25,277 nt of DNA from a virus: IMG/VR virus record IMGVR_UViG_3300012666_000016, positions 1-25,277 of that record; one strand, written 5' to 3'. A program made the translations under genes and the position numbers. Of this stretch, positions 6,650 through 24,747 are shown piece after piece (within the stretch, counting starts at the first letter, position 1; every line of letters starts with the position of its first letter). A model generated the notes under the pieces. The model had not been told where the DNA came from, ran no database searches, and worked only from the letters and a program-made list of their open reading frames with translations.

Positions 6650-6683
6650 TACGATCAACCACCCCTGTTTACACGAGGCTAAT

Positions 6684-7901
6684 ATGAGTCTACAGCAAGC
6701 TGCAAAACATCTTGAAAGGCATGGACGCAACGGCGACGACATGCTCGTTCACATGTCCAAAGGGGAAGTAAAAAGCCTGAACGACATCGCTATGGCGCAT
6801 GGCGGGCAGTTAACCATTAATCCGCAGACTGGCCTGCCTGAAGCAAATTTTTTGAAGCGTATGCTTCCGATGGTCATTGGCGCTGGCTTAGCCGCTACTG
6901 GTGTTGGCGCGCCCGTAGCTGCTTTGATGGTCGGTGGTGGGTATGCGGCAGCAACTGGAGACATCAAAAAAGGTTTGATGGCTGGCTTGGGTGCTTATGG
7001 TGGCGCTGGAATTGGTAGTGCATTGGCAACTTCTGGCGCTGCTGCGACTCAAGCCGCAACCCCTGCTGTATCCTTGGCGGAAGGAGCGGCAGCAGCAACA
7101 CCCCCCGCACCAATCCCTCAAACCCCTCTTACAAATTCAATAACCCCAACAATACCTGACGCTGCACAATCAGTGGTTGTAAAACCCAATTTAGTTAACA
7201 ACTACGGATATGCACCGCAGCCGGGGCCAAACATAATGACTGGGAATATGCCTATACCAGCCAACAGCCCAATGGTTGGCATCAGAACCACCGGCAACCA
7301 AATGTTTGAAGGTGTAAAAAGTCTTGGTTCAGAACCCGGACGCGCAGCTTTTATGAAAAATCTTGAAGCTGTACCCGGCACATTTGGGGCAAAGACCACG
7401 CTTGGCGCAGCCGCATTACCACTGCTTATGCCTGACGAGCAAAAGCAAGAGGAGGTGAAGACTGATTCTGACCCCGGTCAGCAATACACATACGCTGCAA
7501 ACCCAGCCAATCCATTCCCAGAACCTGATCCGTATGGGCGCGAGCGTCGATACTTTAGCCCAGCATACACGCCAAGGGCAGCGGCTGGCGGCATGATGGC
7601 TTCCGGCGGCATCTCTCATCTTGGCGATTACTCAGACGGTGGTCGGTTGCTGCGTGGCCCCGGTGACGGTGTATCTGATTCCATCCCCGCAGTCATTGGC
7701 AAAAAGCAGCCTGCACGTTTAGCCGACGGTGAATTTGTGATACCTGCGCGTATCGTGTCCGAGTTGGGCAACGGCTCGACTGAAGCTGGCGCACGTAAGC
7801 TGTACGCCATGATGGACAGGATTCAGAAGGCTCGCGGCAAGACTGTGGGCAAGGGCAAGGTCGCCAAGAACAGCCGCTCCGAGAAGTATCTACCGGCATG
7901 A
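6684..7901 (+). CDS. Gly/Ala-rich virion-associated protein, possible ejection protein
   Basis: 405 residues from the ATG at 6684, with GAGG (6675-6678) five bases upstream. The frame is open further back to a TTG at 6627, but that would overlap the previous gene without a good site. The first 50 residues are polar (MLVHMSKGEVKSLNDIAM). Residues 60-120 are a long Gly/Ala hydrophobic stretch (MVIGAGLAATGVGAPVAALM) able to enter membranes. A Pro/Asn-rich middle follows, and the C-terminal 70 residues carry GPGDGVSDSIPAVIGKK and ARLADGEFVIPARIVSELGN, a block I recognise from structural proteins of marine and freshwater phages. Its place among virion genes suggests an internal protein ejected with DNA (inference). 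Its stop overlaps the next ATG. Confidence 0.75.
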   Translation: MSLQQAAKHLERHGRNGDDMLVHMSKGEVKSLNDIAMAHGGQLTINPQTGLPEANFLKRMLPMVIGAGLAATGVGAPVAALMVGGGYAAATGDIKKGLMAGLGAYGGAGIGSALATSGAAATQAATPAVSLAEGAAAATPPAPIPQTPLTNSITPTIPDAAQSVVVKPNLVNNYGYAPQPGPNIMTGNMPIPANSPMVGIRTTGNQMFEGVKSLGSEPGRAAFMKNLEAVPGTFGAKTTLGAAALPLLMPDEQKQEEVKTDSDPGQQYTYAANPANPFPEPDPYGRERRYFSPAYTPRAAAGGMMASGGISHLGDYSDGGRLLRGPGDGVSDSIPAVIGKKQPARLADGEFVIPARIVSELGNGSTEAGARKLYAMMDRIQKARGKTVGKGKVAKNSRSEKYLPA

Positions 7902-8326
7902 TGGTGTCTTTGATACCACCGGGCATGGTGGCTCAAACGATACCGGGGTTGCTCCCTCTTTTAACAAAATCCCAAGAATGGACAAGAGGCAGGGCAACGG
8001 TAGACGACATCTTACGGTTTGTTTTTAATGGTCAGATGCAGTTGTGGATTGGGCATGAAGAAGGCAAAATCTACGGTCATGTGATTACGGAAGTAAAAGA
8101 TTACCCACGGCGCAGAATGCTGGTTGTTCAGTACTGCGCAATGGAGCCAAGCCATATGCAGTATATGGATGATGAAATATTCGACCTGCTCAACAGGTTT
8201 GCTAGAGATGCTGGTTGTTCCGGCATTGAGTTCGTTGGTCGTCCCGGCTGGCGTAAACAGGCTGATAAGTATGGGTTTGAGGTACAGAGTGTGGTGTACC
8301 AAAAATTCTTTAAGGAAGAAACATGA
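7898..8326 (+). CDS. GNAT-like fold protein of the virion gene cluster
   Basis: 142 residues; the ATG at 7898 overlaps the upstream stop (ATGA) and a second ATG follows directly. The order of elements fits a GNAT acetyltransferase fold: an N-terminal helix pair with TVDDILRFVFNGQM, a strand with QLWIGHEEGKIYGHVITEV, a central strand RRMLVVQYCAME, then a helix IFDLLNRFARDAGCSGIEF and a last strand VQSVVYQKFF. The usual acetyl-CoA pyrophosphate loop (Q/R-x-x-G-x-G/A) is not visible; GRPGWRKQADKYGFE occupies the later helix region. Related small proteins recur next to internal virion genes in aquatic phages. It may be a catalytically inactive structural or assembly factor. Function is unknown. 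Confidence 0.7.
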   Translation: MMVSLIPPGMVAQTIPGLLPLLTKSQEWTRGRATVDDILRFVFNGQMQLWIGHEEGKIYGHVITEVKDYPRRRMLVVQYCAMEPSHMQYMDDEIFDLLNRFARDAGCSGIEFVGRPGWRKQADKYGFEVQSVVYQKFFKEET

Positions 8327-10860
8327 GTCGCAATTATCAACGTCAATTGGCCTTATTGGATACGCCCGCTGGCGATCTACGTGCGTTTAAAAAAGAAGGC
8401 GGAAAAATAAGGCTGTACGACATGGGTGGCTCTCCAAGCACGCCCGAGAAAACCACACAAGTTGTTGAACTGCCTGACTGGGCCAAAGGCTATGCCAAAG
8501 ATACGTTGGCAAAAGGCGCGGCGCTTACTGATATAAGTAAAAACCCGTACCAACAGTACGGCGGTGAGCGGATTGCTGGGTTCCAACCTTTGCAACAAAG
8601 AACATTTGAGACAGCAGAGCAGATGCAGCCCTCGCAACAAGTAGGGCTTGGTTCTAGCATTGCTGGCATGGCGGGTCTCGGTGCGCTCGGTACAAATTAC
8701 CAAGGTGGTAGATTTTATGGCGGTCAATTTAACGAACAAGCCGCTCAAGATTACATGGATCCATACGCTAAAAATGTGGTGGATTACCAGAAAGCTCAGG
8801 CTTTACGGGATTTTCAAATCGCTCAACCGATGCGTCAAGCCCAAGCAGTACAACAAGGTGCGTTTGGTGGCAGCAGGTCAGCAATCATAGATGCTGAAGC
8901 ACAGCGTTCTTTAAATTCTCAACTTCAAGGCATTGAGGCTACAGGTCGGCAAGCTGCGTTTCAAAACGCCCAGCAGCAATTTGAACGTGATCAGGCTCGG
9001 CGTTTACAAGCTCAAGGCATGGGTGAGCAGTCACGCCAGTACGGCGCTGGTTTGGGTATGCAAGGTCTTCAGACCGGGCTACAAGCCGCAGGTCAGTTAG
9101 GTCAACTTGGTCAAACCGAGTATGGTCAAAGAATGGGTATCACTCAGTTGCAAAGTCAATTGGGCGCACAGCAGCAACAGCAAGCTCAGCGTCCGCTGGA
9201 CATGGCGTATCAGGACTTCATCAACCAGCAGAACTACCCGTATAAACAGTTGGGCTTTATGTCCGACATGATCCGTGGCTTGCCGCTGGGCCAACAATCA
9301 ACTCAATCGGTTTATGGAGGTTCAGGGCCGGGCGCAATACAGACTTTGGCGGGCTTGGGTGGCGCTGCTTATGGCTTTGGTAAATCTGGTTTATTTGGTA
9401 GTGAGAGCAAAGCCGCTGAAGGTGGTTTGATGGGGTACGCCGACGGCGGCGTAACAAGCGACCAAAACGTAGAGAGCATTATTGGCGATCTTAGCGATCA
9501 ACAACTACAACAGGCCAAAGAAGCGGCGTTGAATCGTCGTGATGTTGAACAAGTTGCAATGATTGACGCAGAAATGGCTGAACGTGCTTCAATCCGTAGC
9601 GGTCTTGGCGGTGCGTTCAACCAAATACCTGTAGAGCAGCAAGAAACAATGATGGCTGCTAACGGCGGTATTGTTGCGTTTGCCCCGGGTGGAGCTGCGA
9701 AAAGTAAAGATACCTATGGAAACAGGTTTGAGCAAAGTTTGACCGACTTAAAAGCAATGTCTAATCAAGCCCCGGCGGAACAGACCCCAGAACAAAGAGA
9801 TGAAGCTATTTCTGCTCGTATCCCAATGCTGGAAAAACGCTATGGCCCAGATGTTACTGCGCCGTACTTGGAAGAGACCAAAACCAAACGGGCCGGACTG
9901 GCTGATCAATTTGAGAAAGACAAAGGACTTGCTATTGCAATGGCAAGTTTGAAGTTGCTAAGCCCAAGTAAGAATGTTCGCGGTCGTAGCGAAAAAGACC
10001 AGCTTCTTTCCGGTATCGGTGAAGCGGGCGAGGCATTTGTTGGTGAAGTTGGTCGTCTCAAGAAAGAAAAACGTGAGGTTGACGACAAGCTGCGTCAGTC
10101 TGAAATTTTGTTGGTCACCGCACAACAATCTCGTAAAGAAGGTTTGATTAACAAAGCAGATGCTGAAGAGACTCGCGCACAAGATTTGAAGAGGGATGCT
10201 TTCAAAACTCGAGTTAACATCCAAGAAAAAGTTGCGCAGCTTGAAAGCGGATTGGCCTCGACTGAGATGTCGGGTAAAACACAGAAAGAAATTGCGGCTT
10301 TGGACGCAAGAGTTAAACGCGAAACAATGAATAAGCCCGGTGAGTTGGAACGCATAATGGCCGACGTAGAAGCTATTCGCTCGGGCAAGAAATCATTTGC
10401 TGGTAAAACTGGGGAAGAAGGCGCTCAAGCTTATAAAGAAACTCTTAGCCAAGTTGGTGAAGCAAGGGGCGGCTACAGGTACTTGGGGCCAGATAAATCA
10501 CCAGAACAGGCCGCAGCAATTAGAAAGCAAGCTTTGGATGACGACCGAGTGAAGGACGCTGGGCTTGCAATAATTGCGGCTGGTAGTGACCCCGCCAAAA
10601 AGCAAGCCGCACGAGAAAATTACGACCGTATTTTGCAGAGCGTTGAGCAGGGACTTAGAGATCAGGCGGCGCAAAGTGGCAGGGCACAACGTGGCTCTGC
10701 TGATGCGACTACCGCACCGGCTAAATCTGCTGCGGCGGTGGGTAGAACTCCACCCCCAGCGGCTGTAGATTTACTAAAAAGAGATCCGTCAGCAACAAAC
10801 AGACGTTATTTCGATGATACATTTGGGCCGGGAGCAGCAGCCAAAGCATTGGGGCAATAA
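8323..10860 (+). CDS. Large Gln/Ala-rich internal virion protein
   Basis: 845 residues, ATG at 8323 overlapping the previous stop, with AGGAAG just upstream. Residues about 130-290 are rich in Gln and Ala (AQALRDFQIAQPMRQAQAVQ, ARRLQAQGMGEQSRQYG), suggesting long helices. A block MAYQDFINQQNYPYKQLGFM (about 300-320) is shared by many phage virion proteins. Two Gly motifs, EGGLMGYADGG (366-376) and NGGIVAFAPGG (447-457), resemble one in the upstream 405-residue protein. The second half is charged coiled coil (VGRLKKEKREVDDKLRQSE), ending with an Ala-rich low-complexity tail. Size, composition and position before the giant gene fit a T7 gp15/gp16-like ejected internal protein; this is an analogy, not a homology claim. 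Confidence 0.75.
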   Translation: MSRNYQRQLALLDTPAGDLRAFKKEGGKIRLYDMGGSPSTPEKTTQVVELPDWAKGYAKDTLAKGAALTDISKNPYQQYGGERIAGFQPLQQRTFETAEQMQPSQQVGLGSSIAGMAGLGALGTNYQGGRFYGGQFNEQAAQDYMDPYAKNVVDYQKAQALRDFQIAQPMRQAQAVQQGAFGGSRSAIIDAEAQRSLNSQLQGIEATGRQAAFQNAQQQFERDQARRLQAQGMGEQSRQYGAGLGMQGLQTGLQAAGQLGQLGQTEYGQRMGITQLQSQLGAQQQQQAQRPLDMAYQDFINQQNYPYKQLGFMSDMIRGLPLGQQSTQSVYGGSGPGAIQTLAGLGGAAYGFGKSGLFGSESKAAEGGLMGYADGGVTSDQNVESIIGDLSDQQLQQAKEAALNRRDVEQVAMIDAEMAERASIRSGLGGAFNQIPVEQQETMMAANGGIVAFAPGGAAKSKDTYGNRFEQSLTDLKAMSNQAPAEQTPEQRDEAISARIPMLEKRYGPDVTAPYLEETKTKRAGLADQFEKDKGLAIAMASLKLLSPSKNVRGRSEKDQLLSGIGEAGEAFVGEVGRLKKEKREVDDKLRQSEILLVTAQQSRKEGLINKADAEETRAQDLKRDAFKTRVNIQEKVAQLESGLASTEMSGKTQKEIAALDARVKRETMNKPGELERIMADVEAIRSGKKSFAGKTGEEGAQAYKETLSQVGEARGGYRYLGPDKSPEQAAAIRKQALDDDRVKDAGLAIIAAGSDPAKKQAARENYDRILQSVEQGLRDQAAQSGRAQRGSADATTAPAKSAAAVGRTPPPAAVDLLKRDPSATNRRYFDDTFGPGAAAKALGQ

Positions 10861-10862
10861 AC

Positions 10863-13800
10863 ATGGCAAACCCTTTCGCAAAATTTGCTCAGCCAGAGGT
10901 AGAGCAAAACCCGTTTGCTCAGTTTGCCCGCCCGCAGGAAGAAACAGCTGCGCCTCAAAAACCAACACAACCACAAGAAACTACATCAAACCCACTTATT
11001 GGGTTGGTTGGTCGCACGGCTTCTTTGACCGGCGCTTTTGTGGATTCTGTAGCCGAGGTTGCCGAGCGGGTTGGCGATAAGCTGGAATTGGCTATGCCGT
11101 TGTCGGGCATACCAGCAGAAGACATCAAAAATAAAAAACAACTTCAACCCTTGTTTGACTGGGCTAAATCGCTAAAAGATTATGGTGAAGGCTTGGGCTA
11201 TCAACCAAGCACGCAACTTAAAGAGTTAGGCAGCAACCCACTTAATACTATTCCTTTTGTTGCCGAGCGGGTAATAACTTCTGTGCCCGATATGGTTAGC
11301 GCAGTAAGAGTACCTGTTGCTTACGTCATGGCGCGTACAAAAGAAATTTTAGATGAGCGTGTTAAAAACGACGAAAAAACACTTGACGATGCTACTGTCG
11401 CAGATGTAACCGCTGCGGCTACCGCTGCTGTCATTGAGTCCACACTTGAACGTTTTGCCACCAAAGGTTTGTTCAAACCTACTACTGCCAAAACAGCCAC
11501 AGGTAGGATCGCCAAAGAAACAGGTATTCAAGCAGGTACTGAAGTTGCCGAAGAGGAAGCTGCATACCTTGGCGAAGCCGCAGGAACTAAAAAAGGTCTT
11601 AGCGCGGAAGAAGCACTGACTCGCGGCGCTGAAGCCGCAATCGTCGGCGGTGGTTTGGGTTTTGGCGTGCAAGGGACAAAAGAACTTTTTGCGTCAACAA
11701 CACCGCCCACTACTAGCGAAGAACAACGCCAAACAATTCTTGACAGTTTGGCCTCCCAAGAAACAGGAGAACCCGCCGGTCTATTTGCAGACCAAGAAGG
11801 CGGTCAACCCGCTGGGGAACAATCCAAAGTTGACCTTTACGCAAAGCGGGCTGCGGATGCGTTGGAATCAACAAATGCTGTTGTAGGGAGAGGTTCTACT
11901 GTATCTTCAAAGTACGGTGACGCTGACCAAACGCTGCCGCCGTCCGATGAACCACCCGGTTTGTTTGAAGACGTAGATACCGGCGCTGCCGCCGCAGCAA
12001 CTCCAAGCGCACCTGCTGCTCCTGCCGCACCTGCGTCTGCGCAAACCATTGAAGCCTATGGCGATTTTGTACGTCAGTACACCGACCTGAGAGACGAATA
12101 CAACTCTCTACCTATGGGCCGCATAGATCAAGCGGGCATGAACCAGCGCGGATTGATCCTAAAAGACTTGGCGCAAGTTGTGGACGCAAACATGGATTTG
12201 ATCCGCAGCAGAGGGTTGGCTCAGCAACTTAAAAACCCAATGTTTGACGGGTCAAAAGCATTGGCCAAACTTGAGCCAAATGTTGGCCAGCCCCGTGCAA
12301 TGCGGGGTGATTTGTTTGGGCTTTATCAAGCTGCCGCTCGTCGCATGAAGAATGCAATGGCGCTGTCTGGGCAAAGCGTGGACGGAGCGATTGCAGAGTT
12401 GGAAGACAACCGCGCCCGCGTCCAAGAGAAAGTTGATTCCGACGGGTACACCGACGCAATGATTATTAGTATGCGGCCCGCCAATATGTCGTCTGGTCAA
12501 GCACTCAAGAACAAAGACTCGATTATCCAGAATTACTTGCAGACATCGAACGCTGAGATTGATCAAGCAATTGATATGTTGCGTAGAGGTGTTGGCCAGC
12601 CACGCGCTATGCAGGGTGATGGTGTAAAGAAACCTCTAACGCCGGATCAAATGTATTTTGGTCAAGAAGAAGCAAACTTAACTGCTAAAGCTGAAGATGC
12701 CCAAGCAATGGCGGACAGAGAACAAGCCAAAGTTGACAGCGTTAAGGAAAAGATTGCCCGCGGTATATCTATGGATCAAGGACTTGTAGATATTTTGGCG
12801 GAGCAAACAGCTTGGCTTCAAGGAGAAGCAGATAAAGCCAAAGTTAAATTAGAACAAGTTCGCGAGCACTTACGTGAAATTGGTCATCCCCGGTTTACAA
12901 AAACGTCGGGTACTCCTCGTGCGATGCAGGGTAATTTGTTTTCTTCGCAACAGCGGGCGGATACGCTTGAGGCAGAAAAATCTCGTATCACAAAAGCACT
13001 AAACAACGCCCGCGCAGAGTTGACGCGTCTAAACAATTTAGCTTCCCGTTCAGCCGATGAAACTGCTCCAAGACCCTCTAAAGAAGAATTTGCCAAAGTT
13101 AATGACACCATAGCTTCTTACGAACGCAACCTCTTGGGTGTAGAAAGAGATTTACAAAAAACTCAACAAGATGTAGCGGCTGGTGTAGAACCCACTATTG
13201 GTCGTGAAAGAGAAGAAACGCCCGCGCAAAGTGAATTGTTTGATACCGCTGAATTGCAACAAGAAAATACTCGTGTTATGCGCGAGCGTAGAGCAGCTGC
13301 TGGAGAAGAACCACGCGAAGTTACTGACCGGCGTAAACGGGCAGAAACTACTGTAGATGAATACGCTGACTTAGAAGAAGAGAAGACAGCTGAGACTGTT
13401 CGCCAAGGCGTCCCGCCAAAAGAAAGATTTGAAAAGGCCCCCGAGGTAGACACAGAACACGTTGTGCAAACGGAAGAAGGCGGCAAGATCAAAGATTTCT
13501 TTGACTCTATCCAGTCTAGCTCTGACTCTCCTGCGGAGCAGGAACGCCACGGTAATTCCAAGAACACCGCTGCTGACACCATGCTGGAGTTTGATATTGC
13601 CCAGCCGGGCGAAACCACCAGCGCTGGTTCAAAGCAGATGCTCGACTACCTTGCCCGCCGTGTTGGTGGGCTAGAGAAGTTCAACAAACTTCTGGCTGCA
13701 TTAAAGAATGCGTCGCCAGATGCGCAGTCGCGGCTCCTTACAAACGCGGGATTACCAGACCTAACCACACGCCGTGGTATGGATGAGTTCAGTTCGCAAG

Positions 13801-16800
13801 TACAAAAATATGTAGACCAGATGTTGGCCACAGGGGAAGGCCCACTGTTCAATATAAGAACAAGCAGGATGCGCCCATCCAAAGTCACTGGGACAAACCT
13901 GCCGTATCAAGAGACGATTACCACCACCGCTACAGTTACACAAGCGTTTGACACCCCACTTGGTGTAAAACCTCGACGCCCAAACCAAGCCACTAAAGAA
14001 GTGGTGCGTGATATTAACGATAACAAATTGCGTGCGGCTGCATTGATCCTCAAGCAGATGACGGGGAAAATTTCTCCGCAAGCGCAGGCCGCTATTACGT
14101 ACCTGACCAACTTGAACCGCACCACATTTGGTGATGCGATCAGGGACTTGGCGTTCGATCTTGCGTACTTTGAAATAAACCCAAAAAATTACGGTGCTGG
14201 TTCTACGTTCTATAAAGAAGGTGGTAAGTACGCACAAGACTTCCGCGCATGGATTGAGGCTAACCTCGACGCTAACACCGTTGATTTGCTTAATGAACTG
14301 GTGGCGGAGAACAAACAAAATGCCGCAGAAGCCGCAAAGTTTGAAAGCGCAATAACTGTTTACAACGAATTGTTAGATATTGCGGCAGAGAAAAACCGTA
14401 AGAAAGCCGAAGAGCAAGGGGCCAAGCTGCCTAAAGCACCCCGGAGAAAAAAACCAGCCAAAGAACGCCTTTCCAAAATGCAAGAAGAGGCGGAGACCGA
14501 AGCGGGCGAAGGTGAAGAAACCCAAGAACCATTCACAGAAGTCAGCACAAAGAATTTACCTACTGTTGAGATGCTCACTGAGGTGCATCCGGCCATCCGT
14601 CGTTTGCTGATCGAAGGCAAGACTCGTGAAGCTCTTGAACTGCTTGCGCAAACAAAGAACAACAAGTACTACGCTGAACTGGCTCAACGCATACTGGATA
14701 CAGGCTTTACGGCTGAGACACGTTTAATTGATCCCGACACTATGGAGTCGTTGTCAAACGACCCGCAAGTTAAAGAGTCACTAGACGAACGCCTGCGTTC
14801 GTTACGTGATCTAGTTGTGGCGCTCTATCCGCAAGAACAACAGGCATCCATTATTGATGGACTGCAATCTGGAAAGTTGCGCAACTTGGTTTTTGCTGTT
14901 GATACCATGCAGGACACGCTAGAGCAGAACGGTGGGACTGAGTCCAACCAGATGTTGCTCGACAGCGTGGCGCAGTTGGTTAATGAACAATTTGCGTGGA
15001 ACGGCAAGTATGACCCAGCGACGGATAAGATTGTCATGCGCCAAGGTTCTGGCCACCTCACAAACCACCTGTTGCTGCACGAAACTTTGCACGCAGCCGC
15101 ATCTCATCTGATAGACAACAAAGATCGACTTGTTGGTATACAACGCCAAGGTTACGAAAGACTTGATGAGTTGTATCAGTACTCCAAGAATATTTTCTCG
15201 CAGAAGGGCATAGACTTGTCTACCGTGTACGGTTTGCAAGACATACACGAGTTTTTGTCTGAGTCGCTCACAAACCCAGAGTTCCAAGCACTGTTGCGCT
15301 CTATCCGGTACAAGGCTTCACCGTTCTCTTTGTACAACCGCTTTACTGATGCGGTAAGAAAACTGTTCAACGTAAAGCCGGGCGCACCAAGTAACGTGAT
15401 GGTTGAAGTCATGTTTGCTGCTGACGCAATGATGGCCGGTACGATGTCTTTGGAGGGCATGCAAGTAACCACCGGGCCGAAGGCGATGGCCACTAAGCGG
15501 CCACCCCCTTCCAAAATTGTCCCCAAGGGTATGCCAAATCAGCCGTCCACAATTAAGCGCTGGATGATGGCCAGCACATGGACAAAGAATAAGATGCGTG
15601 AGATACGCAGCATGGATTCGGCTGCACGCGGCGCGTATCTGGGTATATTGACGCTGCGCCAAATCAATGACTTGGTGGCTGGGCGTATACCGCAGATCAA
15701 CAACTTTATTAACGTGGCGGAAAAGTTTCTGTCGCGCAAGTCACAGATACTTAAAGAGTCTGGTGACATATCTCGCAAGTGGGAACGCCTGCAAGCAGCT
15801 GATCCAGACATGTCACGCCAACTTGGTGTTGTGATGCACAGCGCCACAATTTTGGGGGTTGATCCGGACATAGCAACAGCGGCTCAAAAAGCAAAGAACG
15901 CCAAGTTGATGAATGACTGGAAAATGTTAACTCCAGAAGCACGAACTATATATAGAGATGTGCGCAATTTTTACGAACGTAGGTACGGACAATACAAAAG
16001 ATTGATGCGCAATCGCATCAACACCATGCGTGGACTTGGGCCGTCTAATTACCAACTCACTAAGATGCTGGCGAGCATTGAGGGCGTTCCAGAAAATGTT
16101 TTGGCCCGTATTGAAAATTACAGTCCTTCTGAGGACACGTTAAACACTTTACTACGTTCTGGGTTCACCAAGAAAGTACAAAGTGATCTCGCGTCTGGCG
16201 GCGCGGACGCAAAGACTATTTTAGATATACGTAATGAGTTTGAAAAAGCAAAAATCAAAGGGCCTTACTTCCCGTTGATGCGCTTTGGCCAATATTGGTA
16301 TCAGATTGGTAAAGGGGCAAACCGTGAGTACTACATGTTTGAATCGCAGGGCGCAAGAGAAGCGCACTTGCAAGCCCGCCTAGATCAAGAACCTAATAAA
16401 GCTGCCCGCGACGCTTTGGAAAAAACTATTGGTACAAATATTGGTAATGACTATCAGCAACAGATGGACTTGCACGCACGCCAATCTGAATTTTTAAAGG
16501 ATTCATTTGCTGCCGTAGATAATTTGAATATGGCGGGCCTAACACCAGTTGAAGCTGCTAATCGAAAGTCTGAGCTAAAGGATAACCTGTACCAAACATA
16601 CTTGGCCAATCAGCCAGATCGCAGCATACGCAACGCTTTCATACACCGTAAAAGTGTTGCTGGTTATTCTGAAGATGCGCTGCGCAGTTTTGCGTCTTCA
16701 TCATTTAGCATGGCTTATCAGATGTCACGGTTGGAGTACTCCCCAGAGATGTTTTCCCAGCTTGATGCCGCACGGTCGCAGATTAAGGGCCGCTTCACCC

Positions 16801-18578
16801 CCGGCGCAAAATACGATGAAACGCTTACCGCTGAGAATGACGAACTGCGTAGTTATGTTCGGGAAATTGATAACCGTCTCGGCGCAATACTCAACCCAGA
16901 AGATACCGGCAAGTGGACGTCGTACTTCTCAAACATAGGGTTTGTTTACTACCTGACTTCGATTGGCTCCGCGCTTGTCAACGTTATGGGCGGTGTGATG
17001 ATTGGTGCACCAACGCTGATCGGTCAACAGGTTCGTGCAAATCCCGGCATGAGTTACGCAAGGGCCACTGGCCGGGTTCTATACAACATGGGCAAAACAA
17101 CTGCCGAGATCATGGCTACTGGTTTTGGTGTTGAAGCTGGCGGGCGTGTAATAGACTCACGATTGTTATCTCCTTCGCTTGAAAGATCAAAAAGTCTGTC
17201 AGCGATGGACAAGGCTGCATATAACCGTTTTGTTGCTGACGGCATTATTGATATAACCGCAGCTTATGACCAGTCAGGTTTGGCGGCTAATCCAACCTCT
17301 GAATACAACAGCATACCTAACCGGGCCATGCAGATCGTGGCCTACGCATTCCATCATGCTGAGCGGTTTAACCGTGAAATCATGGCCATGTCTGCTTTTA
17401 GATCGGCTATGGAGAAGCGGGCAAACTACCCCAACAAACAACAAGCGTTTGCAGAGTCAATTGCCGAAGCCAAAGACTTAACCCAACGGGCCATGTTTGA
17501 TTACTCGTCAACCAACAAGCCACGTTTCTTGCAAAGTTCTTTGGCCAGAATTGTTCTCCAATTTAAACAGTTCCCGCAACAGATGACTTGGTTCTTGGCC
17601 CGCAACGCTTGGAACACGTTTGGCAATTTACCCGAGGCGGAAAAACGTGAAGCCCGCGCCCGCTTTGTTGGCACGATGGGCATGGCGGCTATCTTCTCTG
17701 GGGTCACTGGTCTCTGGGGCTTTTCAACTGTGGCTTTTATTGTTGAGGCTTGTGCGGCCTTTGGCGACGATGATGACGAACCACCGTTTGATTTTGAACT
17801 TGAGTTTGCAAACTGGGCGGTCAATACGTTTGGTGAAAACATGGGTACTATGCTGTCACGCGGTATAGGTAACGCCGCTGGCGTTGACCTGCATAGCCGT
17901 TTGAAACTCGATGGTATGTGGTTCAGAGACGGGCGGAATAATTTAGACGCGGAGGCTCAGGTAGAAGCTTTTCTGGTAGGCATACTGGGGCCAACTATTG
18001 GCCTTCTACCAACCGCTGCCCGTGCCGTAGATTTATACAAGACAGGCCATGCTGATAGGGCAATTGAAACAATGTTGCCCGGGTTTGTTAAACAACCCGT
18101 AATTGCTGCACGTTATGCGGATGAGGGCGCTAGAACCCTGCAAGGCAACATCATGAAACAAGAGTTCACTCCTTTTGAGTTGATGATGCAGGGATTGGGC
18201 ATACGACCCGCTGACCTCGCAGAGATTCAGTTCCGAAACATTAAGGTAAAAGGGCAGGAGCAGGAGATACTTAAAAAACGTCAGACTGTGTTAGACATTT
18301 TTGGGTTGACTATCATGACCAACGATGAAGAGGGAACACAGGCGGCGATCGAGAAAATAATAAAATTCAACACCAAGTATCCTACGCTCGCAATAGACGT
18401 GGACACTCTCTTCAAGTCTATAGAAGGCAAGTTCGAAAAGTCAGCGCAGACCGATCATGGTTTGTATGTTGACCCTAAGCTGCGGTACTTATTTACGGAC
18501 ACTTACATCCAGAAAATAACCGAGAAAAATAAAGAAGACCCTACTGAAGAAAATCCTTTCCTAAAGTACGTGCAATAA
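10863..18578 (+). CDS. Giant polyvalent virion protein: HExxH metallopeptidase-like site, PLxRFG domain
   Basis: 2571 residues; ATG two bases after the previous stop, weak ribosome binding site. The N-terminus has two NPFAxFAxP repeats (residues 3-10 and 16-23). Residues about 330-850 are charged linkers and coiled coils with three PRAMxG repeats (477-482, 580-585, 685-690) and two QxxLF motifs (689-693, 789-793). LLLHETLHAAASH gives H1406, E1407 and H1410, with a possible third zinc ligand E1463 or E1467 in DIHEFLSE, as in gluzincin-like zincins. PLMRFG (1804-1809) is an exact match to the PLxRFG signature of a domain found in phage polyvalent proteins. Hydrophobic segments lie at about 2020-2050 and 2268-2305, the latter followed by GDDDDEPP. 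Such proteins are packaged and injected to act on the new host. The domain calls are mine from motifs; the order and the function of the peptidase are inferred. No frameshift is seen. Confidence 0.85.
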   Translation: MANPFAKFAQPEVEQNPFAQFARPQEETAAPQKPTQPQETTSNPLIGLVGRTASLTGAFVDSVAEVAERVGDKLELAMPLSGIPAEDIKNKKQLQPLFDWAKSLKDYGEGLGYQPSTQLKELGSNPLNTIPFVAERVITSVPDMVSAVRVPVAYVMARTKEILDERVKNDEKTLDDATVADVTAAATAAVIESTLERFATKGLFKPTTAKTATGRIAKETGIQAGTEVAEEEAAYLGEAAGTKKGLSAEEALTRGAEAAIVGGGLGFGVQGTKELFASTTPPTTSEEQRQTILDSLASQETGEPAGLFADQEGGQPAGEQSKVDLYAKRAADALESTNAVVGRGSTVSSKYGDADQTLPPSDEPPGLFEDVDTGAAAAATPSAPAAPAAPASAQTIEAYGDFVRQYTDLRDEYNSLPMGRIDQAGMNQRGLILKDLAQVVDANMDLIRSRGLAQQLKNPMFDGSKALAKLEPNVGQPRAMRGDLFGLYQAAARRMKNAMALSGQSVDGAIAELEDNRARVQEKVDSDGYTDAMIISMRPANMSSGQALKNKDSIIQNYLQTSNAEIDQAIDMLRRGVGQPRAMQGDGVKKPLTPDQMYFGQEEANLTAKAEDAQAMADREQAKVDSVKEKIARGISMDQGLVDILAEQTAWLQGEADKAKVKLEQVREHLREIGHPRFTKTSGTPRAMQGNLFSSQQRADTLEAEKSRITKALNNARAELTRLNNLASRSADETAPRPSKEEFAKVNDTIASYERNLLGVERDLQKTQQDVAAGVEPTIGREREETPAQSELFDTAELQQENTRVMRERRAAAGEEPREVTDRRKRAETTVDEYADLEEEKTAETVRQGVPPKERFEKAPEVDTEHVVQTEEGGKIKDFFDSIQSSSDSPAEQERHGNSKNTAADTMLEFDIAQPGETTSAGSKQMLDYLARRVGGLEKFNKLLAALKNASPDAQSRLLTNAGLPDLTTRRGMDEFSSQVQKYVDQMLATGEGPLFNIRTSRMRPSKVTGTNLPYQETITTTATVTQAFDTPLGVKPRRPNQATKEVVRDINDNKLRAAALILKQMTGKISPQAQAAITYLTNLNRTTFGDAIRDLAFDLAYFEINPKNYGAGSTFYKEGGKYAQDFRAWIEANLDANTVDLLNELVAENKQNAAEAAKFESAITVYNELLDIAAEKNRKKAEEQGAKLPKAPRRKKPAKERLSKMQEEAETEAGEGEETQEPFTEVSTKNLPTVEMLTEVHPAIRRLLIEGKTREALELLAQTKNNKYYAELAQRILDTGFTAETRLIDPDTMESLSNDPQVKESLDERLRSLRDLVVALYPQEQQASIIDGLQSGKLRNLVFAVDTMQDTLEQNGGTESNQMLLDSVAQLVNEQFAWNGKYDPATDKIVMRQGSGHLTNHLLLHETLHAAASHLIDNKDRLVGIQRQGYERLDELYQYSKNIFSQKGIDLSTVYGLQDIHEFLSESLTNPEFQALLRSIRYKASPFSLYNRFTDAVRKLFNVKPGAPSNVMVEVMFAADAMMAGTMSLEGMQVTTGPKAMATKRPPPSKIVPKGMPNQPSTIKRWMMASTWTKNKMREIRSMDSAARGAYLGILTLRQINDLVAGRIPQINNFINVAEKFLSRKSQILKESGDISRKWERLQAADPDMSRQLGVVMHSATILGVDPDIATAAQKAKNAKLMNDWKMLTPEARTIYRDVRNFYERRYGQYKRLMRNRINTMRGLGPSNYQLTKMLASIEGVPENVLARIENYSPSEDTLNTLLRSGFTKKVQSDLASGGADAKTILDIRNEFEKAKIKGPYFPLMRFGQYWYQIGKGANREYYMFESQGAREAHLQARLDQEPNKAARDALEKTIGTNIGNDYQQQMDLHARQSEFLKDSFAAVDNLNMAGLTPVEAANRKSELKDNLYQTYLANQPDRSIRNAFIHRKSVAGYSEDALRSFASSSFSMAYQMSRLEYSPEMFSQLDAARSQIKGRFTPGAKYDETLTAENDELRSYVREIDNRLGAILNPEDTGKWTSYFSNIGFVYYLTSIGSALVNVMGGVMIGAPTLIGQQVRANPGMSYARATGRVLYNMGKTTAEIMATGFGVEAGGRVIDSRLLSPSLERSKSLSAMDKAAYNRFVADGIIDITAAYDQSGLAANPTSEYNSIPNRAMQIVAYAFHHAERFNREIMAMSAFRSAMEKRANYPNKQQAFAESIAEAKDLTQRAMFDYSSTNKPRFLQSSLARIVLQFKQFPQQMTWFLARNAWNTFGNLPEAEKREARARFVGTMGMAAIFSGVTGLWGFSTVAFIVEACAAFGDDDDEPPFDFELEFANWAVNTFGENMGTMLSRGIGNAAGVDLHSRLKLDGMWFRDGRNNLDAEAQVEAFLVGILGPTIGLLPTAARAVDLYKTGHADRAIETMLPGFVKQPVIAARYADEGARTLQGNIMKQEFTPFELMMQGLGIRPADLAEIQFRNIKVKGQEQEILKKRQTVLDIFGLTIMTNDEEGTQAAIEKIIKFNTKYPTLAIDVDTLFKSIEGKFEKSAQTDHGLYVDPKLRYLFTDTYIQKITEKNKEDPTEENPFLKYVQ

Positions 18579-18627: not shown

Positions 18628-18849
18628 CTACAAGTTGCGCTTTGATTGTACGCGCTTAACCCGCCACACGCGCAATCCCCTTACGCCATCTTCTATTACT
18701 AGCTTACTGATTGTGGTGTAGCCCAGACGCCGCATCTTACGGTCTACCCGGTCTCGTGCTTCTACATCATTGAGACATGGCACGAAGAAGGAACTACCAA
18801 CTGTAAATTCTTCCCAGTTAAGTTGGTACGTTACGCCATCAATCCTCAT
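18628..18849 (-). CDS. Small hypothetical protein ending the replication operon
   Basis: 73 residues from the ATG at 18849, preceded by AAGG in the last codons of the primase-helicase gene, with which it overlaps by 11 bases. The longer open frame reaching back to 18939 lies inside the primase gene and is rejected. The sequence starts MRIDGVTYQLNWEEFTVGSS, followed by FFVPCLN, then a charged helix (DRVDRKMRRLGYTTIS) and a very basic end (RVWRVKRVQSKRNL). The GSSFFVPCLN-type block recurs in short phage proteins of unknown function, and the net positive charge would suit nucleic-acid binding. No catalytic motif is visible. The terminator follows 21 bases after its stop. Confidence 0.72.
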   Translation of the reverse strand: MRIDGVTYQLNWEEFTVGSSFFVPCLNDVEARDRVDRKMRRLGYTTISKLVIEDGVRGLRVWRVKRVQSKRNL

Positions 18850-21676
18850 TGCCTTGCAGGTCAATACTGGGTGCGACACCCAACAGATCGGAATCAAACT
18901 CCAACGCCACCACTGGCGGGGCGCTGATGTCCGTGCCAATATCCAGTCGGGTACGAACCTCGGAGATGAACGCGCCCGTCTTGTTCAAGGCGGTCAGCAG
19001 ATCGGTAAAGGTGACCTGCTTTAGTACGCAGAAATCCTTGAGCGACTGGCGGATTATGTATATACGTCGTGTATCTGGTTCGTACCGGACAACCAACGCA
19101 CCACGGGGCAACAACAGCGGGGTGGCGGCAATACCTGACTTGGAACTGCTGTACTTGTTGACCACCAGAATGTTCAGGTTGTGCTTGAGCAGGAACTCGC
19201 CAACGATGGTGGCGTAGTCGTTGAACGACAACCGTGTGGCCGACTGCATGTCAGAAATCTCGGCCACCGCCCAGTCAAATACCCGTTTGTGGTTTATGTT
19301 GTGCAGCCCCAGCTTGTGGGCAATCAGTCCGCCTGTCAGATTTGCGCCCGCCATGCCTGACCAAAATCGTTCTCGGGTGTCTATCTTTACAGCCTGATCA
19401 AACCGGGCCTGTACTTTCAGCGCGGTCTCCACAACTTCCTCAAGATTCTGCACAAGGTACTGGGCGTACGGCAGGCCAGCCAAACCGTAGTTGCTGTGCA
19501 ACCGGCCAAAGACATGCTTGGCTGTGGCTTTGTCGAGGTTGTTGGTTGGGTCAATCTTGTACTGCATCAGACGCATCAACTCGCCCTCTGACGTTGACTT
19601 CAAGGACTCCAGCTTGTCGGTCATACTGGAGTTGGACGTGGCCACCATCATGGTTGCCCAAAAGCCTTGGGACTCACGCTCCTCGTTGGAGGATGCTTTC
19701 ATACGGCGGCGCGGTGCGCCCTGCGTTACGCTGTAGGCCAGATCAGAGAAGTCGTCCCCGCTCATCTTTGTGATCTCGTCCACACCCAGCGGTAGATTGC
19801 ACATGACTGCCATGCGGTGGAGCTTGACGTTCAGGGTATCTTTCCATTGCAGCATCAACTCATCGGGGTGGCCCCACACGCTGTTCATAACCTGAAGTAT
19901 GGTTGACTTGCCTGTTCCAGATTTATTATTTATAAGGTTGATGATGCCGCCCTTGATACCCATAAATTTGATAAGCGGTGCGCCAAACGCAGAAAACACA
20001 GCAAAGGCATGCGGCTCAAAGTTCGGCATGTCGTAGACATTGATGATGTCTTTCCACTCGTCCAGCGACCCAACAGGGCGTAAGGCGTGGGCGATGTCCC
20101 GTGTTGCCTTGGACGGTGGACTGTATTTGACATAGCTCGCCCCGATCTCTCTGTTCCCCAAAATAAACTTCTCGTCGTCATCTGCCCAACCAAATTGCAA
20201 CCTCATCATCTCCACCTCTTGTGTTACTTGTAGTTCTTTTGCACATTGCATCAAGTAATCCAGAATCAAGGCCATCTGGGCCACGCCCGCAATGACACCG
20301 TGAAAAGAAACGGTTTTCCTCAACTCATCCTTACTCAGTGCATCTACCAACGGCACAGAGAATTCCTTGGCCCCATCCCTCGGAAGCACCCGACGAATCA
20401 GAATCGTCTCGCCCAATGCAGGGTCGTACATCCGCTTGGTGACAAACAGGTCGTACTCGTATACAAGAGCAACAGCGGGGCCGTCGCCTTCTTCGTTCTC
20501 TTCTTTCAGATGTTTGTAAACACCACCGTTCTTACCGCGAAAATACCGGTTTGGTAACTTTGGTACTACGAATTCAACGGGTGCAGCGTCCTTGCTTGTG
20601 GACTGGTACTCAATAATTTCACCAGCTTCGGATTTGGCGATCTCATGGCCCAACACAATAGGAGATTTGATCTTGCCTCGGTGCATACACTTGTCGCACA
20701 GCCCCGGTGCAAACGAATCAAACGTGTCGCAGGTGTATGGGCCTTTGATTTGATTGGCCTTGCGTTCTGTGGCAGCTGCGTCGTACTTTGGGTGATTCTT
20801 GGATATCAGGTGAATCGCCTTGCCACGGTCTACGCAATGCTGGGCAACGGACAGTCCCGCCCGCCACAATGGTTCTTCGATGTTGGGTTGATCCTCAACG
20901 ATCAGACGCATCTGTTCACACCCAACGCCATCAGCGGTCTTCTTCAGGATGGTGCGAAACCGTGATTGCTTATTACCAATAACAGCTTTTGTAAAGTCGT
21001 CTAATTCCTTGGGGGCATAAGGCTTCTTCACGTCTACCAACGGCCCCATGCGTTCGGCAAAGTCATCGAACGTCATTGGCTGAGACAGGTGCATCAGGAC
21101 AACGTCATGCGGTGGGGTGTCCTTGAAGTTCTTTGTCCCCGGAATCCGCAACACCCGCGCTGCATCTGCTGGTACAGCAGGGTCAACAATAAACTTGTGT
21201 TCAAGGCACTTGGCTTTGAAAGTCTCAGCTACAGGTAACCACTTATCTTTGGCCACAGCTTCAGTCAGCGGCCAGTAAACGTGCCAGCCACGGCCAGAGT
21301 TAACGACGGTCGGCCTTGGCAGGTTCAGAGTTTTACACAATTCTTTAAGTGCTTGCAGTCCTGTGGCTTGATCTATGTACCCTCTGATACGCCCACGCTT
21401 GTCCGGCTTGGCCTTGTCTTCCCCGCAATCAATGTCCAAGAAGAACGACTTCATCAAGCCACAGTTGGCGGCATCCCGATTCTCGTCGGTGATGAACTTA
21501 CCGCATCCAAAGAATACATCTATGCCGTTGGCCACCAAACGGTCGGCTTCGGCTTCTAATTCTTCTATTGTTTTGTGGTGAGTCTGTGAATGGTGTGTGC
21601 CATTCTTCAACCCCAGTACACAGTAGAACCCTTCTTCTGAAGGGACGACTGCTTCAAGCAAACGAACATCCGCCAT
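18839..21676 (-). CDS. Primase-helicase fusion (AEP-type primase plus DUF927-like ATPase)
   Basis: 945 residues from the ATG at 21676; an in-frame GTG at 21691 adds five residues but has no ribosome binding site. N-terminal primase: FFLDIDCGED has the metal-binding DID (81-83), NSGRGWHVYW (126-135) the nucleotide-binding His motif, and VDPAVPADAARVLRIPGTKN (164-183) the third acid and arginine motif of archaeo-eukaryotic-type primases. A Cys cluster follows (C316, C327, C330 and H332 in LCDKCMHRGKIKSPI), probably a zinc site. C-terminal part: GWADDDEKFILGNREIG and the Walker A NNKSGTGKST (K590), then a Walker B-like VDEI (632-635), typical of the DUF927 helicase family. It would prime and unwind DNA at the phage fork. 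The gene follows a 92-base gap containing a GC hairpin. Confidence 0.9.
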   Translation of the reverse strand: MADVRLLEAVVPSEEGFYCVLGLKNGTHHSQTHHKTIEELEAEADRLVANGIDVFFGCGKFITDENRDAANCGLMKSFFLDIDCGEDKAKPDKRGRIRGYIDQATGLQALKELCKTLNLPRPTVVNSGRGWHVYWPLTEAVAKDKWLPVAETFKAKCLEHKFIVDPAVPADAARVLRIPGTKNFKDTPPHDVVLMHLSQPMTFDDFAERMGPLVDVKKPYAPKELDDFTKAVIGNKQSRFRTILKKTADGVGCEQMRLIVEDQPNIEEPLWRAGLSVAQHCVDRGKAIHLISKNHPKYDAAATERKANQIKGPYTCDTFDSFAPGLCDKCMHRGKIKSPIVLGHEIAKSEAGEIIEYQSTSKDAAPVEFVVPKLPNRYFRGKNGGVYKHLKEENEEGDGPAVALVYEYDLFVTKRMYDPALGETILIRRVLPRDGAKEFSVPLVDALSKDELRKTVSFHGVIAGVAQMALILDYLMQCAKELQVTQEVEMMRLQFGWADDDEKFILGNREIGASYVKYSPPSKATRDIAHALRPVGSLDEWKDIINVYDMPNFEPHAFAVFSAFGAPLIKFMGIKGGIINLINNKSGTGKSTILQVMNSVWGHPDELMLQWKDTLNVKLHRMAVMCNLPLGVDEITKMSGDDFSDLAYSVTQGAPRRRMKASSNEERESQGFWATMMVATSNSSMTDKLESLKSTSEGELMRLMQYKIDPTNNLDKATAKHVFGRLHSNYGLAGLPYAQYLVQNLEEVVETALKVQARFDQAVKIDTRERFWSGMAGANLTGGLIAHKLGLHNINHKRVFDWAVAEISDMQSATRLSFNDYATIVGEFLLKHNLNILVVNKYSSSKSGIAATPLLLPRGALVVRYEPDTRRIYIIRQSLKDFCVLKQVTFTDLLTALNKTGAFISEVRTRLDIGTDISAPPVVALEFDSDLLGVAPSIDLQGNED

Positions 21677-21702
21677 ATTGTGTCCAAGCACGTCAAGAGA
21701 AA

Positions 21703-21759
21703 GGGGGGCAACGGGGGCTGACGGTTACCCCGTTCGCTCCGTCGAGCTAGTCGCCCCCC
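21703..21759 (-). other. GC-rich nested hairpin between the HTH gene and the primase gene
   Basis: GGGGGGC (21703-21709) pairs with GCCCCCC (21753-21759), and inside it AACGGGG (21710-21716) pairs directly with CCCCGTT (21728-21734), leaving 21735-21752 as a second loop. On the minus strand the outer stem is followed by TTTCTCTT, an imperfect U-rich run, and then by the primase start 27 bases later. It could act as a leaky terminator or attenuator, or as an mRNA structure limiting primase synthesis. The absence of a good ribosome binding site for the primase fits a regulated start. Pairing is visible; the role is inferred. Confidence 0.6.
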
Positions 21760-21767
21760 GAAACGAT

Positions 21768-21992
21768 TTACTTCAAGTTCAAGAAAGTGGAGATGTGTTT
21801 CTGGTGATCTTTGCTGGGTATATGGGTTCCAGAGAACCAGTTGTACACCGTCTGCCTAGTCACGTTGAAAAGCACCATAACATCGGTAACAGGGACGTCG
21901 TGGGAAATGCAGTACCTTCCCAAACGAACACCCAAGTTTTTGATGCTGGCCCCTTTGTTGAGTTGAGCAACTCTTTGGCTGTATCCAATCAT
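21768..21992 (-). CDS. Small helix-turn-helix DNA-binding protein
   Basis: 74 residues from the ATG at 21992, which overlaps the stop of the upstream gene (ATGA). Residues 33-54 read VPVTDVMVLFNVTRQTVYNWFS, a clear helix-turn-helix: a first helix, a turn at FNVT, and a recognition helix RQTVYNWF, followed by GTHIPSK, as in Cro/C1-like and similar phage regulators. The N-terminal half (NLGVRLGRYCI) would be the supporting helices. At this size it is a DNA-binding domain with little else, probably a dimeric regulator of the early genes or a replication accessory factor. It is cotranscribed with the probable single-strand binding protein and followed by the GC hairpin. Confidence 0.78.
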   Translation of the reverse strand: MIGYSQRVAQLNKGASIKNLGVRLGRYCISHDVPVTDVMVLFNVTRQTVYNWFSGTHIPSKDHQKHISTFLNLK

Positions 21993-22879
21993 TTGTCGTC
22001 GTCGCCCCACTCGTCGACCAGCGCAGAGAGGTTCTGCTTGGGCTTGGGTACAACAACAACTTTCTTCTTCTCGACCCGTACAGTGGGTTCTTTGGCCTCT
22101 TCCTCTTCTTTTATGCTGGCGGCGGCAGACCCAGCAGGTGCGACCAACTTGGGAATAGCAGGGGTTTCCTGTTTCTTGGTGAAGTTCATCTTGCCCGCAT
22201 TGACGGCAACTTGCGTCTGCCCTTGGGCTACCGCGACTTGGTAGGTTTCTTTGTCGAGAAACTCCGCGTTGCTGAAGACCAGCTTGGGGAAATCGCTGTC
22301 GGTGTCAAACGTCAAGCGTGTGGCCAACATGTTCAAGTTGTAGCCTGAACTGGCAACATACTTGGCGTATTGCAAGAACGGCATGTGGTCAACATCACCA
22401 GTACCAAAAATACTTTTCTGTGGCAGGATCAATTGGAAGATGTCACCGCCCACGTTGTTTCGCAGCGTAACGCCCAAGCGCCATGAATAACGGCAAGCTG
22501 CACGACCGGGGCCACCTGTACCTTTGATGGCTTGGGGGCAGTCTTTACAGATAGAGCCTTGTGGGTTCTCAACATCTGCGTCAGGACGCTCGCCATCACT
22601 CGACCAGCAGTCAGGAATGGAGGTCTCTTCAGAGTTGTACTCAGCGGCGTAGTACGACTTTTGCACACTGCGGCTACCACTGACGATCACAACGTCCATG
22701 TGTGAGTCAGTGTTCTTGGCAATCTCTTTGCCGCCATCAACCAGACGGAAGACACGCCCGCGCAGTGTGATGCGCTTGACGCTACCGCCTGATGCAGTAA
22801 AGGCTTTTGTGAAGTCATCCAACTCTACGTTTTGCAGGTGGGCGGGAAGGTTCTCACGGTATGTAGTTACGTTGCTCAA
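21989..22879 (-). CDS. Probable single-strand DNA-binding / replication protein, TTG start
   Basis: 296 residues. The start is TTG at 22879, fixed by AAGGAG six bases upstream; no ATG lies near. A globular part (about 35-230) has alternating strands (VKRITLRGRVFRLVDGG, SHMDVVIVSG), then CWSSDGERPDADVENP and a four-Cys set (C91, C111, C114, C129), probably binding zinc, and FQLILPQKSIFG. The tail (about 235-296) is low-complexity Glu/Lys with a final acidic DEWGDDDK, the arrangement by which single-strand binding proteins such as T7 gp2.5 recruit partners. I recognise the WSxDGxRPD...C--CP layout from phage proteins placed next to replication genes. Position between the HTH and coiled-coil genes supports a fork role. 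Single-strand binding is an inference. Confidence 0.75.
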   Translation of the reverse strand: MSNVTTYRENLPAHLQNVELDDFTKAFTASGGSVKRITLRGRVFRLVDGGKEIAKNTDSHMDVVIVSGSRSVQKSYYAAEYNSEETSIPDCWSSDGERPDADVENPQGSICKDCPQAIKGTGGPGRAACRYSWRLGVTLRNNVGGDIFQLILPQKSIFGTGDVDHMPFLQYAKYVASSGYNLNMLATRLTFDTDSDFPKLVFSNAEFLDKETYQVAVAQGQTQVAVNAGKMNFTKKQETPAIPKLVAPAGSAAASIKEEEEAKEPTVRVEKKKVVVVPKPKQNLSALVDEWGDDDK

Positions 22880-22885
22880 TTTTCT

Positions 22886-22891
22886 CTCCTT
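22886..22891 (-). promoter_or_regulatory. Ribosome binding site setting a TTG start
   Basis: AAGGAG on the minus strand, six bases before the TTG at 22879 and overlapping the stop codon of the upstream 139-residue gene (22890-22892). Its strength and spacing establish the TTG as the start of the probable single-strand binding protein. Confidence 0.8.
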
Positions 22892-23309: not shown

Positions 23310-23339
23310 TTGAAGTTCCTTTTGGTTGTTGTGGGGGTT

Positions 23340-23368
23340 ATTATATGGCTTGTACTAGACTTTGTCAA
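23340..23368 (-). promoter_or_regulatory. Exact-consensus sigma-70 promoter for the replication operon
   Basis: On the minus strand TTGACA (23363-23368) and TATAAT (23340-23345) are separated by exactly 17 bases, a full 12 of 12 match to the host housekeeping consensus. Transcription should start near 23333, giving a leader of about 24 bases before the ATG at 23309. The -35 box overlaps the TGA stop of the SNF2 gene (23365-23367). It would drive the coiled-coil, single-strand binding, HTH, primase-helicase and 73-residue genes using host RNA polymerase. Confidence 0.9.
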
Positions 23369-24744: not shown

Positions 24745-24747
24745 TGG

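Follow-up and report, generated by a model that had tools for sequence, protein, structure and literature searches.

Gene context and domain architecture

What does a phage protein of 2571 residues do when its gene lies directly behind that of a DNA ejection protein, and by what means would the two products recognise each other? The window analysed here is the whole of IMG/VR record IMGVR_UViG_3300012666_000016 (25,277 b) and is probably a piece of a genome of about 60–65 kb, as in relatives. Loci are given L numbers below where they have to be told apart. The gene, its upstream neighbour and its C-terminal domains are as follows.

8323–10860 (+): upstream tunnel-type ejection protein, 845 aa (phrog_4287 DNA ejection protein, E 8e-25)
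10863–18578 (+): giant polyvalent/ejection protein, 2571 aa (ORF with ATG start; relatives at 60 IMG/VR loci)
15615–16019 (+): LPD39, residues 1585–1719 (Pfam, E 3e-17)
16260–18482 (+): PLxRFG 'tail-700' domain, residues 1800–2540, with PLMRFG at 1804–1809 (NCBIfam NF032893, 461 bits)
16953–18029 (+): region with three TM-like hydrophobic segments (hydropathy only)

The giant gene starts at 10863, directly following the end of the ejection-protein gene at 10860, which is the gp16-type (last) position. The first-pass annotation had described its product as a polyvalent-type protein with an HExxH site, a PLMRFG signature and hydrophobic C-terminal segments, and this description holds. HETLH (residues 1406–1410) and PLMRFG (residue 1804) are both exact, LPD39, the PLxRFG 'tail-700' domain and a conserved zincin-like site are present, and three TM-like segments were found at residues about 2031–2054, 2274–2301, and 2365–2389 (hydropathy only). 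Of the two neighbouring ejection proteins that had also been proposed, the one at 8323–10860 is supported by its match to phrog_4287, while the candidate at 6627–7901 had no family match. About 95 residues in the C-terminal part of the 6627–7901 product are 77–97% identical among otherwise divergent relatives, and its remainder is variable.

The zincin is the one enzyme-like domain recognised in the giant protein. Residues ~290–1310 had no family match in Pfam, PHROGs, or NCBIfam, and the same three collections revealed no methylase, helicase, lysozyme, transglycosylase, or other effector domain; more distant cultured relatives do possess a methylase/helicase or a transglycosylase. The 'DarB-like antirestriction' family phrog_10089 of PHROGs matches the giant protein at residues 1579–2537 only and the methylase-helicase dyad is absent, so that a DarB-like antirestriction identity was rejected. 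Distant relatives of the tail occur in Rhodobacterales, Hoeflea, and gammaproteobacterial assemblies. The structure model of the tail (pLDDT 67) gave no significant Foldseek match in the PDB and its profile matched nothing there, and homology of the body to gp16 is therefore unproven.

Zincin-like domain

14793–15467 (+): zincin-like domain, residues 1311–1535 (AlphaFold2 pLDDT 85.6, pTM 0.71; profile matches)
15078–15092 (+): HETLH (H1406, E1407, H1410), invariant in 44/44 sequences
15249–15251 (+): E1463, third-ligand candidate, invariant in 44/44 sequences

An HExxH motif is expected by chance about 0.01 times in a protein of this composition. H1406, E1407, H1410, E1463, and F1464 were invariant in all 44 distinct relatives that contain the zincin region, down to ~22% identity. 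Of the two glutamates previously suggested as third ligand, E1463 stood and E1467 did not; since the latter is not conserved among the 44 sequences, E1463 is the third-ligand candidate. Structure prediction, as had been proposed for 200-residue segments, placed HExxH and E1463 on two successive helices behind a two-stranded sheet (AlphaFold2; layout helix-strand-helix-helix, two strands, pLDDT 85.6). The model had no significant Foldseek match in the PDB, and the zincin fold is thus deduced from sequence. Profile searches against the PDB retrieved 9sfn_G ('Internal virion protein', E 8.5e-17), 8vb2_A (PhiM1 tetrameric ejection protein gp48, E 5e-11), and 23sg_S (gp10, E 6e-4), and weakly anthrax lethal factor (E 0.11).

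By its invariant residues and its profile matches to ejectosome core proteins, the giant protein is a polyvalent protein that carries a zincin-like domain and is encoded where T7 and P22 have gp16. Metallopeptidase activity is plausible given the residue conservation, and the domain may act in self-processing or on a host target. Zincin-like MPTases occur in about 36% of the polyvalent proteins treated by Iyer et al., who proposed self-processing (PMC5512222). Ejection of the giant protein into the host, suggested in the first-pass annotation, is very probable judging from its gene context and its ejectosome homologues: the gene lies directly 3' of that of an ejection protein, the zincin profile matches ejectosome structures, and the end tags described below pair with the neighbour.

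N-terminal module and linkers

10983–11732 (+): N-terminal module, residues ~41–290, exchanged between proteins
12291–12947 (+): linker motif PRAM[QR]G(xLF), three copies at residues 477, 580, and 685 (spacing 103 + 105)

Residues ~1–290 are 65–85% identical to the N-terminal modules of L048, L050, L056, and L058, whose C-terminal half is only ~25% identical to the giant protein, which shows that the N-terminal module was exchanged. The linker motif (residues 477–695) is retained in most close relatives, where it surrounds a small domain. Its Q..LF resembles a beta-clamp-binding motif; alternatively, the linker motif may be a site of processing.

Matching tags at both ends of the giant protein

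The end tags and the cognate C-terminus of the upstream protein bear most on the mechanism and were absent from the first-pass annotation. Three copies of the tag can be read from the sequence of the giant gene.

10869–10892 (+): N-terminal tag copy 1, NPFAKFAQ, residues 3–10
10908–10931 (+): N-terminal tag copy 2, NPFAQFAR, residues 16–23
18552–18575 (+): C-terminal tag copy, NPFLKYVQ, residues 2564–2571 (the last eight)

In most relatives the extreme N-terminus is likewise a short aromatic motif in two to three copies, with a sequence that varies by relative. Eleven tag types were distinguished: NPFAxF, GPWxxY, NFFDQF, DYAxLA, IVDPF, WWxxAP, FDPDxYL, SPEEWL, GFSFA, DFSKY, and SFVPLEE. Within the clade of the window the C-terminal tag, ~7.5 kb away from the N-terminal copies, is of the same type as the N-terminal one in 13/13 proteins comprising four types (0/20,000 permutations). 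In a tree of the C-terminal core the types are intermingled (GPW-tagged L006 falls within NPF, and NPF-tagged L008 is sister to GPW-tagged L016), and both ends have therefore switched together several times. At the DNA level, L003/L006 and L008/L016 differ in islands of ~60–90 bp at the C-terminal tag and are 93–100% identical just downstream. The codons diverge between the tag copies of one gene; it follows that the protein motif is what selection keeps, and DNA gene conversion between the copies is unsupported. Given the C-terminal copy in this clade, the two ends of the chain would meet partners of one type.

A second subclade (L048, L116, L118, and L128) repeats its own IVDPF tag internally, at residues ~436–548. 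This copy lies about 1500 residues before the C-terminus. Partners of the tags elsewhere on the same contigs were considered and discarded, as regular expressions located the tags in little else than the giant protein, on contigs many of which are partial. The cultured giant relatives LASTA, Pavtok, Atu_ph08, and Mwe-JY07 have no obvious tag pair.

Cognate C-terminus of the upstream ejection protein

10750–10857 (+): proposed docking domain, formed by the upstream protein's last 36 aa (..AVDLLKRDPSATNRRYFDDTFGPGAAAKALGQ), NPF-cognate by type matching

Each tag type is associated with one type of upstream ejection-protein C-terminus of ~30 residues.

NPF tags: ..AAVDMLKSDPS..FDEIFGPGAAAKALG
NFF tags: ..ALRADPS..EFDAYYGPGSAARALGG
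GPW tags: ..GTIxDGxRFKGGDPxNPxxWEKV
DYA tags: ..APDGKTYRFKTQAEADKFRQQIGG
IVDPF tags: ..FLxAARxANPGVSDAxLxAYYxxxY
WW, FDPD, SPEW, and GFSF tags: further distinct types

NPF and NFF are alike in their tags and alike in their upstream partners. The tag types had been fixed from the giant-protein N-termini alone, before the upstream C-termini were inspected. Among 52 pairs of sequences related to one another, 50 were testable, and the nearest neighbour by the last 36 aa of the upstream protein had the same tag type in 50/50, as compared to 29/50 by the upstream body. Discrimination of matching tag types gave an AUC of 0.985 for the upstream C-terminus versus 0.708 for the body (0/5000 permutations). 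As the 52 pairs are related sequences, tests that are independent of phylogeny weigh more. Between L009 and L023 both proteins show 96% identity, but the last 36 aa of the upstream protein only 50%; L009 carries GPW tags and L023 WW tags, each with the upstream end of the corresponding type, and a single block of ~200 bp, covering both ends of the gene junction, was exchanged between them. The upstream body was rejected as determinant of tag type, since it predicts the type in 29/50 only and L009/L023 as well as L008/L016 are similar in the body and differ in the tag. Searches with the docking elements against the PDB and Pfam (three alignments, nine elements) yielded nothing significant.

Pairing across unrelated phage proteins

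IMG/VR was scanned with a DNA pattern that encodes GPWxxY in tandem; with all counts taken among the matches listed, this recovered at least 81 complete proteins in 26 groups without detectable similarity outside the tag, 66 of the 81 starting with MxGPW. A C-terminus of the form xGG[DN]P..W was located immediately upstream of the GPW tags in 112 of 116 matches listed versus 37 of 1041 random positions, using a regular expression that had been loosened once after its misses were viewed (strict version, 66/116). Two of the four remaining misses are apparent spurious ORFs, L133 has the motif ~0.6 kb upstream, and the fourth is L162. The upstream partners of the GPW-tagged proteins fall into at least 34 unrelated groups among the matches listed. 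Some of the tagged bodies belong to a DNA ejection family, others to a transglycosylase/DNA-transfer family. In the reciprocal scan, which started from NPGVSDA C-termini, the next gene was IVDPF-tagged in 20 of 21 real cases with the gene present, and had a PPIDLSGL tandem in the remaining one. Among cultured phages, Pseudomonas phage F116 pairs GYRFKGGNPADQNNWEKV with KPWEEF twice, phage IME_EC2 pairs ..YGFLP with NIFDQFD, and phage Kc259 has an NPFAQF tag. At L287 the protein that comes after an NPGVSDA-type end has 3634 aa and an N-terminus with PPIDLSGL in tandem, which may be one more tag type.

P22-like phages

Published hybrids of P22 and Sf6 bear on the same gene pair. P22 gp20 combined with Sf6 gp16 is non-functional, though Sf6 gp16 is packaged, and P22 gp16 combined with Sf6 gp20 is non-functional as well; Sf6 gp16 and gp20 together are functional, and P22 gp20 without its last 33 residues gives non-functional virions (PMC10883804). 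From the hybrid data we predicted a different cognate pair for Sf6 before the P22-like sequences were compared. In P22, APSE-1, and BTP1, gp20 ends in YTSKSGIxFxVE and gp16 starts with MKVTAxGKTFxFPxGT, while in Sf6, HK620, CUS-3, ST64T, ST160, and UPF_BP1, gp20 ends in FSSLWGD and gp16 starts with MAxAWKDVxASxxYQAL. The gp20 C-end type thus equals the gp16 N-end type in 9/9 P22-like phages. ST160 has the second end type, yet is 74% (gp20 body) and 81% (gp16 body) identical to P22, and APSE-1 has the first, yet its gp20 body is only 30% identical to that of P22; end type thus does not track the bodies. This pairing fits the published lethality of the P22/Sf6 gp16/gp20 hybrids. In the PDG type (L007, L036, L108, L110, L111, L294, and L297, which is P22) the roles look inverted: here the upstream protein has a short, strand-like peptide at its C-terminus, and the downstream protein a small domain at its N-terminus.

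Proposed mechanism and alternative explanations

The giant gene would encode the last and largest ejection protein (T7 gp16/P22 gp16 position), and the 845-aa upstream protein would be a tunnel-type ejection protein (T7 gp15/P22 gp20 position). From its N-terminus onwards, the giant protein would consist of docking tags and an N-terminal module, both of them swappable, then linkers with small domains, the zincin-like domain, an LPD39/PLxRFG body with membrane-type segments, and a matching C-terminal tag. The last ~30–36 residues of the upstream protein would form a small docking element that recognises the aromatic tags, and the C-end of the tunnel protein would in this way catch the N-end of the next protein. 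Tag and docking element would exist in many mutually exclusive cognate types that are exchanged as cassettes, so that a matched pair would be kept in each phage. The pair would most likely serve, while the DNA is being delivered, to connect the tunnel in the periplasm with the inner-membrane/cytoplasmic protein. We consider it quite likely, from the sequence comparisons, that a swappable docking code of this kind holds together the tunnel protein and the giant ejection protein of the inner membrane/cytoplasm.

From the pairing we infer physical binding between tag and docking element, and timing after ejection instead of a function in packaging. Docking during DNA delivery is suggested by three observations: the N-terminal 'tape' of T7 gp16 binds and stabilises the gp15 C-terminal region after ejection (PMC8954989), P22 gp16 and gp20 are packaged independently of each other (PMC8402733), so that docking is not needed for packaging in P22, and the P22/Sf6 hybrids behave as described above. 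By analogy with PhiM1, one may speculate that a chain has two tags to suit a tunnel-to-giant ratio of 8:4.

Four other explanations have to be weighed against docking during delivery. If the gene junction were one recombination cassette, tag and upstream C-terminus could covary by hitch-hiking and the tags could have other partners, e.g. scaffold or portal. L009/L023 did exchange one ~200-bp block over both ends, the pairs are nearly always adjacent, and scaffold is needed for P22 E-protein packaging (PMC8402733). Tag and docking element are usually encoded at most ~300 bp apart, and part of their covariation could thus be linkage. Linkage alone is argued against by the C-terminal tag, ~7.5 kb distant and of the same type in 13/13 proteins, which needs a separate event, and by the persistence of the pair on 34 × 26 unrelated bodies among the matches listed. 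The IVDPF-type subclade also retains an internal copy of its own tag, the codons of the tag copies diverge, and of the P22/Sf6 swaps the single ones are dead and the double one is alive with Sf6 gp16 packaged (PMC10883804), which together make hitch-hiking distinctly improbable. The same hybrids bear on a role of the tags as capsid-loading signals, whereby the upstream docking element would load the giant protein into the procapsid. A pair of N-terminal tags on each chain would fit a PhiM1-like 8:4 tunnel-to-giant stoichiometry and a role inside the virion (PMC11440229), but Sf6 gp16 is packaged in non-functional hybrids (PMC10883804) and each P22 ejection protein is packaged without the others (PMC8402733), and we regard capsid loading as unlikely.

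The first-pass annotation had viewed the giant protein as an injected multi-tool against host defence, with a protease that attacks host proteins. Such a function has been predicted for polyvalent proteins as a class (PMC5512222), and a DarB-like antirestriction PHROG matches the C-terminal half. This match is limited to the shared C-terminal body, however, and since no methylase, helicase, lysozyme, or other known effector domain was detected with Pfam, PHROGs, and NCBIfam, the multi-tool is unsupported. The zincin is conserved in ejectosome core proteins, and a structural or self-processing role suits it at least as well; an anti-defence function thus appears very unlikely. The zincin might cut its own chain or the tunnel protein at linkers, for example at the repeated PRAMQG-xLF motif; on present sequence data this is a tentative possibility, and a somewhat doubtful one. 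The linker motif recurs 103–105 residues apart around a small domain in the window's clade, and autoprocessing was proposed for P1 DdrB (PMC5512222); against this, the same source has N4 vRNAP, which contains a zincin, packaged unprocessed, and distant relatives have the zincin without the linker motif.

Beyond the window, consecutive ejection proteins of podophages are likely to be matched by a docking code that is general and modular, made up of a ~10–35-residue C-terminal element and a short N-terminal (sometimes internal or C-terminal) tag. It would comprise at least a dozen exclusive types that are cassette-swapped across unrelated proteins, would explain the P22/Sf6 gp16–gp20 incompatibility, and would require both ends of the giant protein to share a type. 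Such a code would bear on mutual recognition among podophage ejection proteins and on their reassembly in the cell envelope. If true, the interface could be named in many phages from sequence alone, the published P22 hybrid lethality would be explained, the tag could help to spot, in viral genomes, ejected proteins whose function is unknown, and there would perhaps be a modular handle for fixing cargo to the ejection apparatus.

Relation to known systems

Exchangeable cognate pairs of C- and N-termini are familiar from the docking domains of modular megasynthases, which are unrelated to the phage ends and similar by analogy only. T7 is set apart by description, as we know of no short tags or exchangeable C-terminal docking element in its gp15/gp16; the type of contact, between the gp16 N-terminal tape and the gp15 C-terminal region, is the same (PMC8954989). 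Polyvalent proteins are giant, combine an HExxH + Glu MPTase with LPD-type and PLxRFG domains, and are encoded beside virion genes (Iyer et al. 2017, PMC5512222). The window's protein differs in that a second effector enzyme was not detected, and matched end tags with a cognate neighbour C-terminus were not found described in the available portion of PMC5512222. P22 gp20 and gp16 likewise have adjacent genes, a type-specific gp20 C-end and gp16 N-end, and incompatibility by type (PMC10883804, PMC8402733). The P22-like types have other sequences (GI[KQ]F.VE paired with an N-domain of the PDG type; FSSLWGD paired with AWKDVIAS..), and P22 gp16, with 609 aa, is without zincin and without a visible C-terminal tag copy. 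The PhiM1 ejectosome (TEP gp48, OEP gp49; PMC11440229, PDB 8vb2) shares the gene order and a zincin-profile match at TEP residues 376–511, but the TEP is half the size of the giant protein and no end tags were seen.

Keyword searches of the literature returned no account of such a code, part of which could be mentioned by Casjens and Thuman-Commike 2011 (Virology; P22-like mosaicism), and the tag strings did not occur in the literature searched. The docking code looks new; the giant protein itself is of an already known kind.

Additional observations

The replication genes of the window (18839–25180, − strand; DUF927 primase/helicase-like and SNF2 helicase) are convergent to the structural genes and, unlike the upstream ejection protein, are 89–97% conserved in close relatives. 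The match of the HExxH/Glu zincin profile to PhiM1 gp48 (8vb2_A residues 376–511; locus L249:12198-15989; E 5e-11) falls within TEP residues 268–528, an endolysin/exotransglycosidase-like domain according to the authors of the structure (PMC11440229), and suggests that this region holds a zincin-like domain. In the F116 record, the annotated start of F116p59 (L065:5600-6100) is apparently in the wrong frame. The start with an SD in front of it, MADTSKPWEEF..KPWEEF, is in a different frame, which soon runs into a stop; this suggests a frameshift or sequencing error at F116p59.
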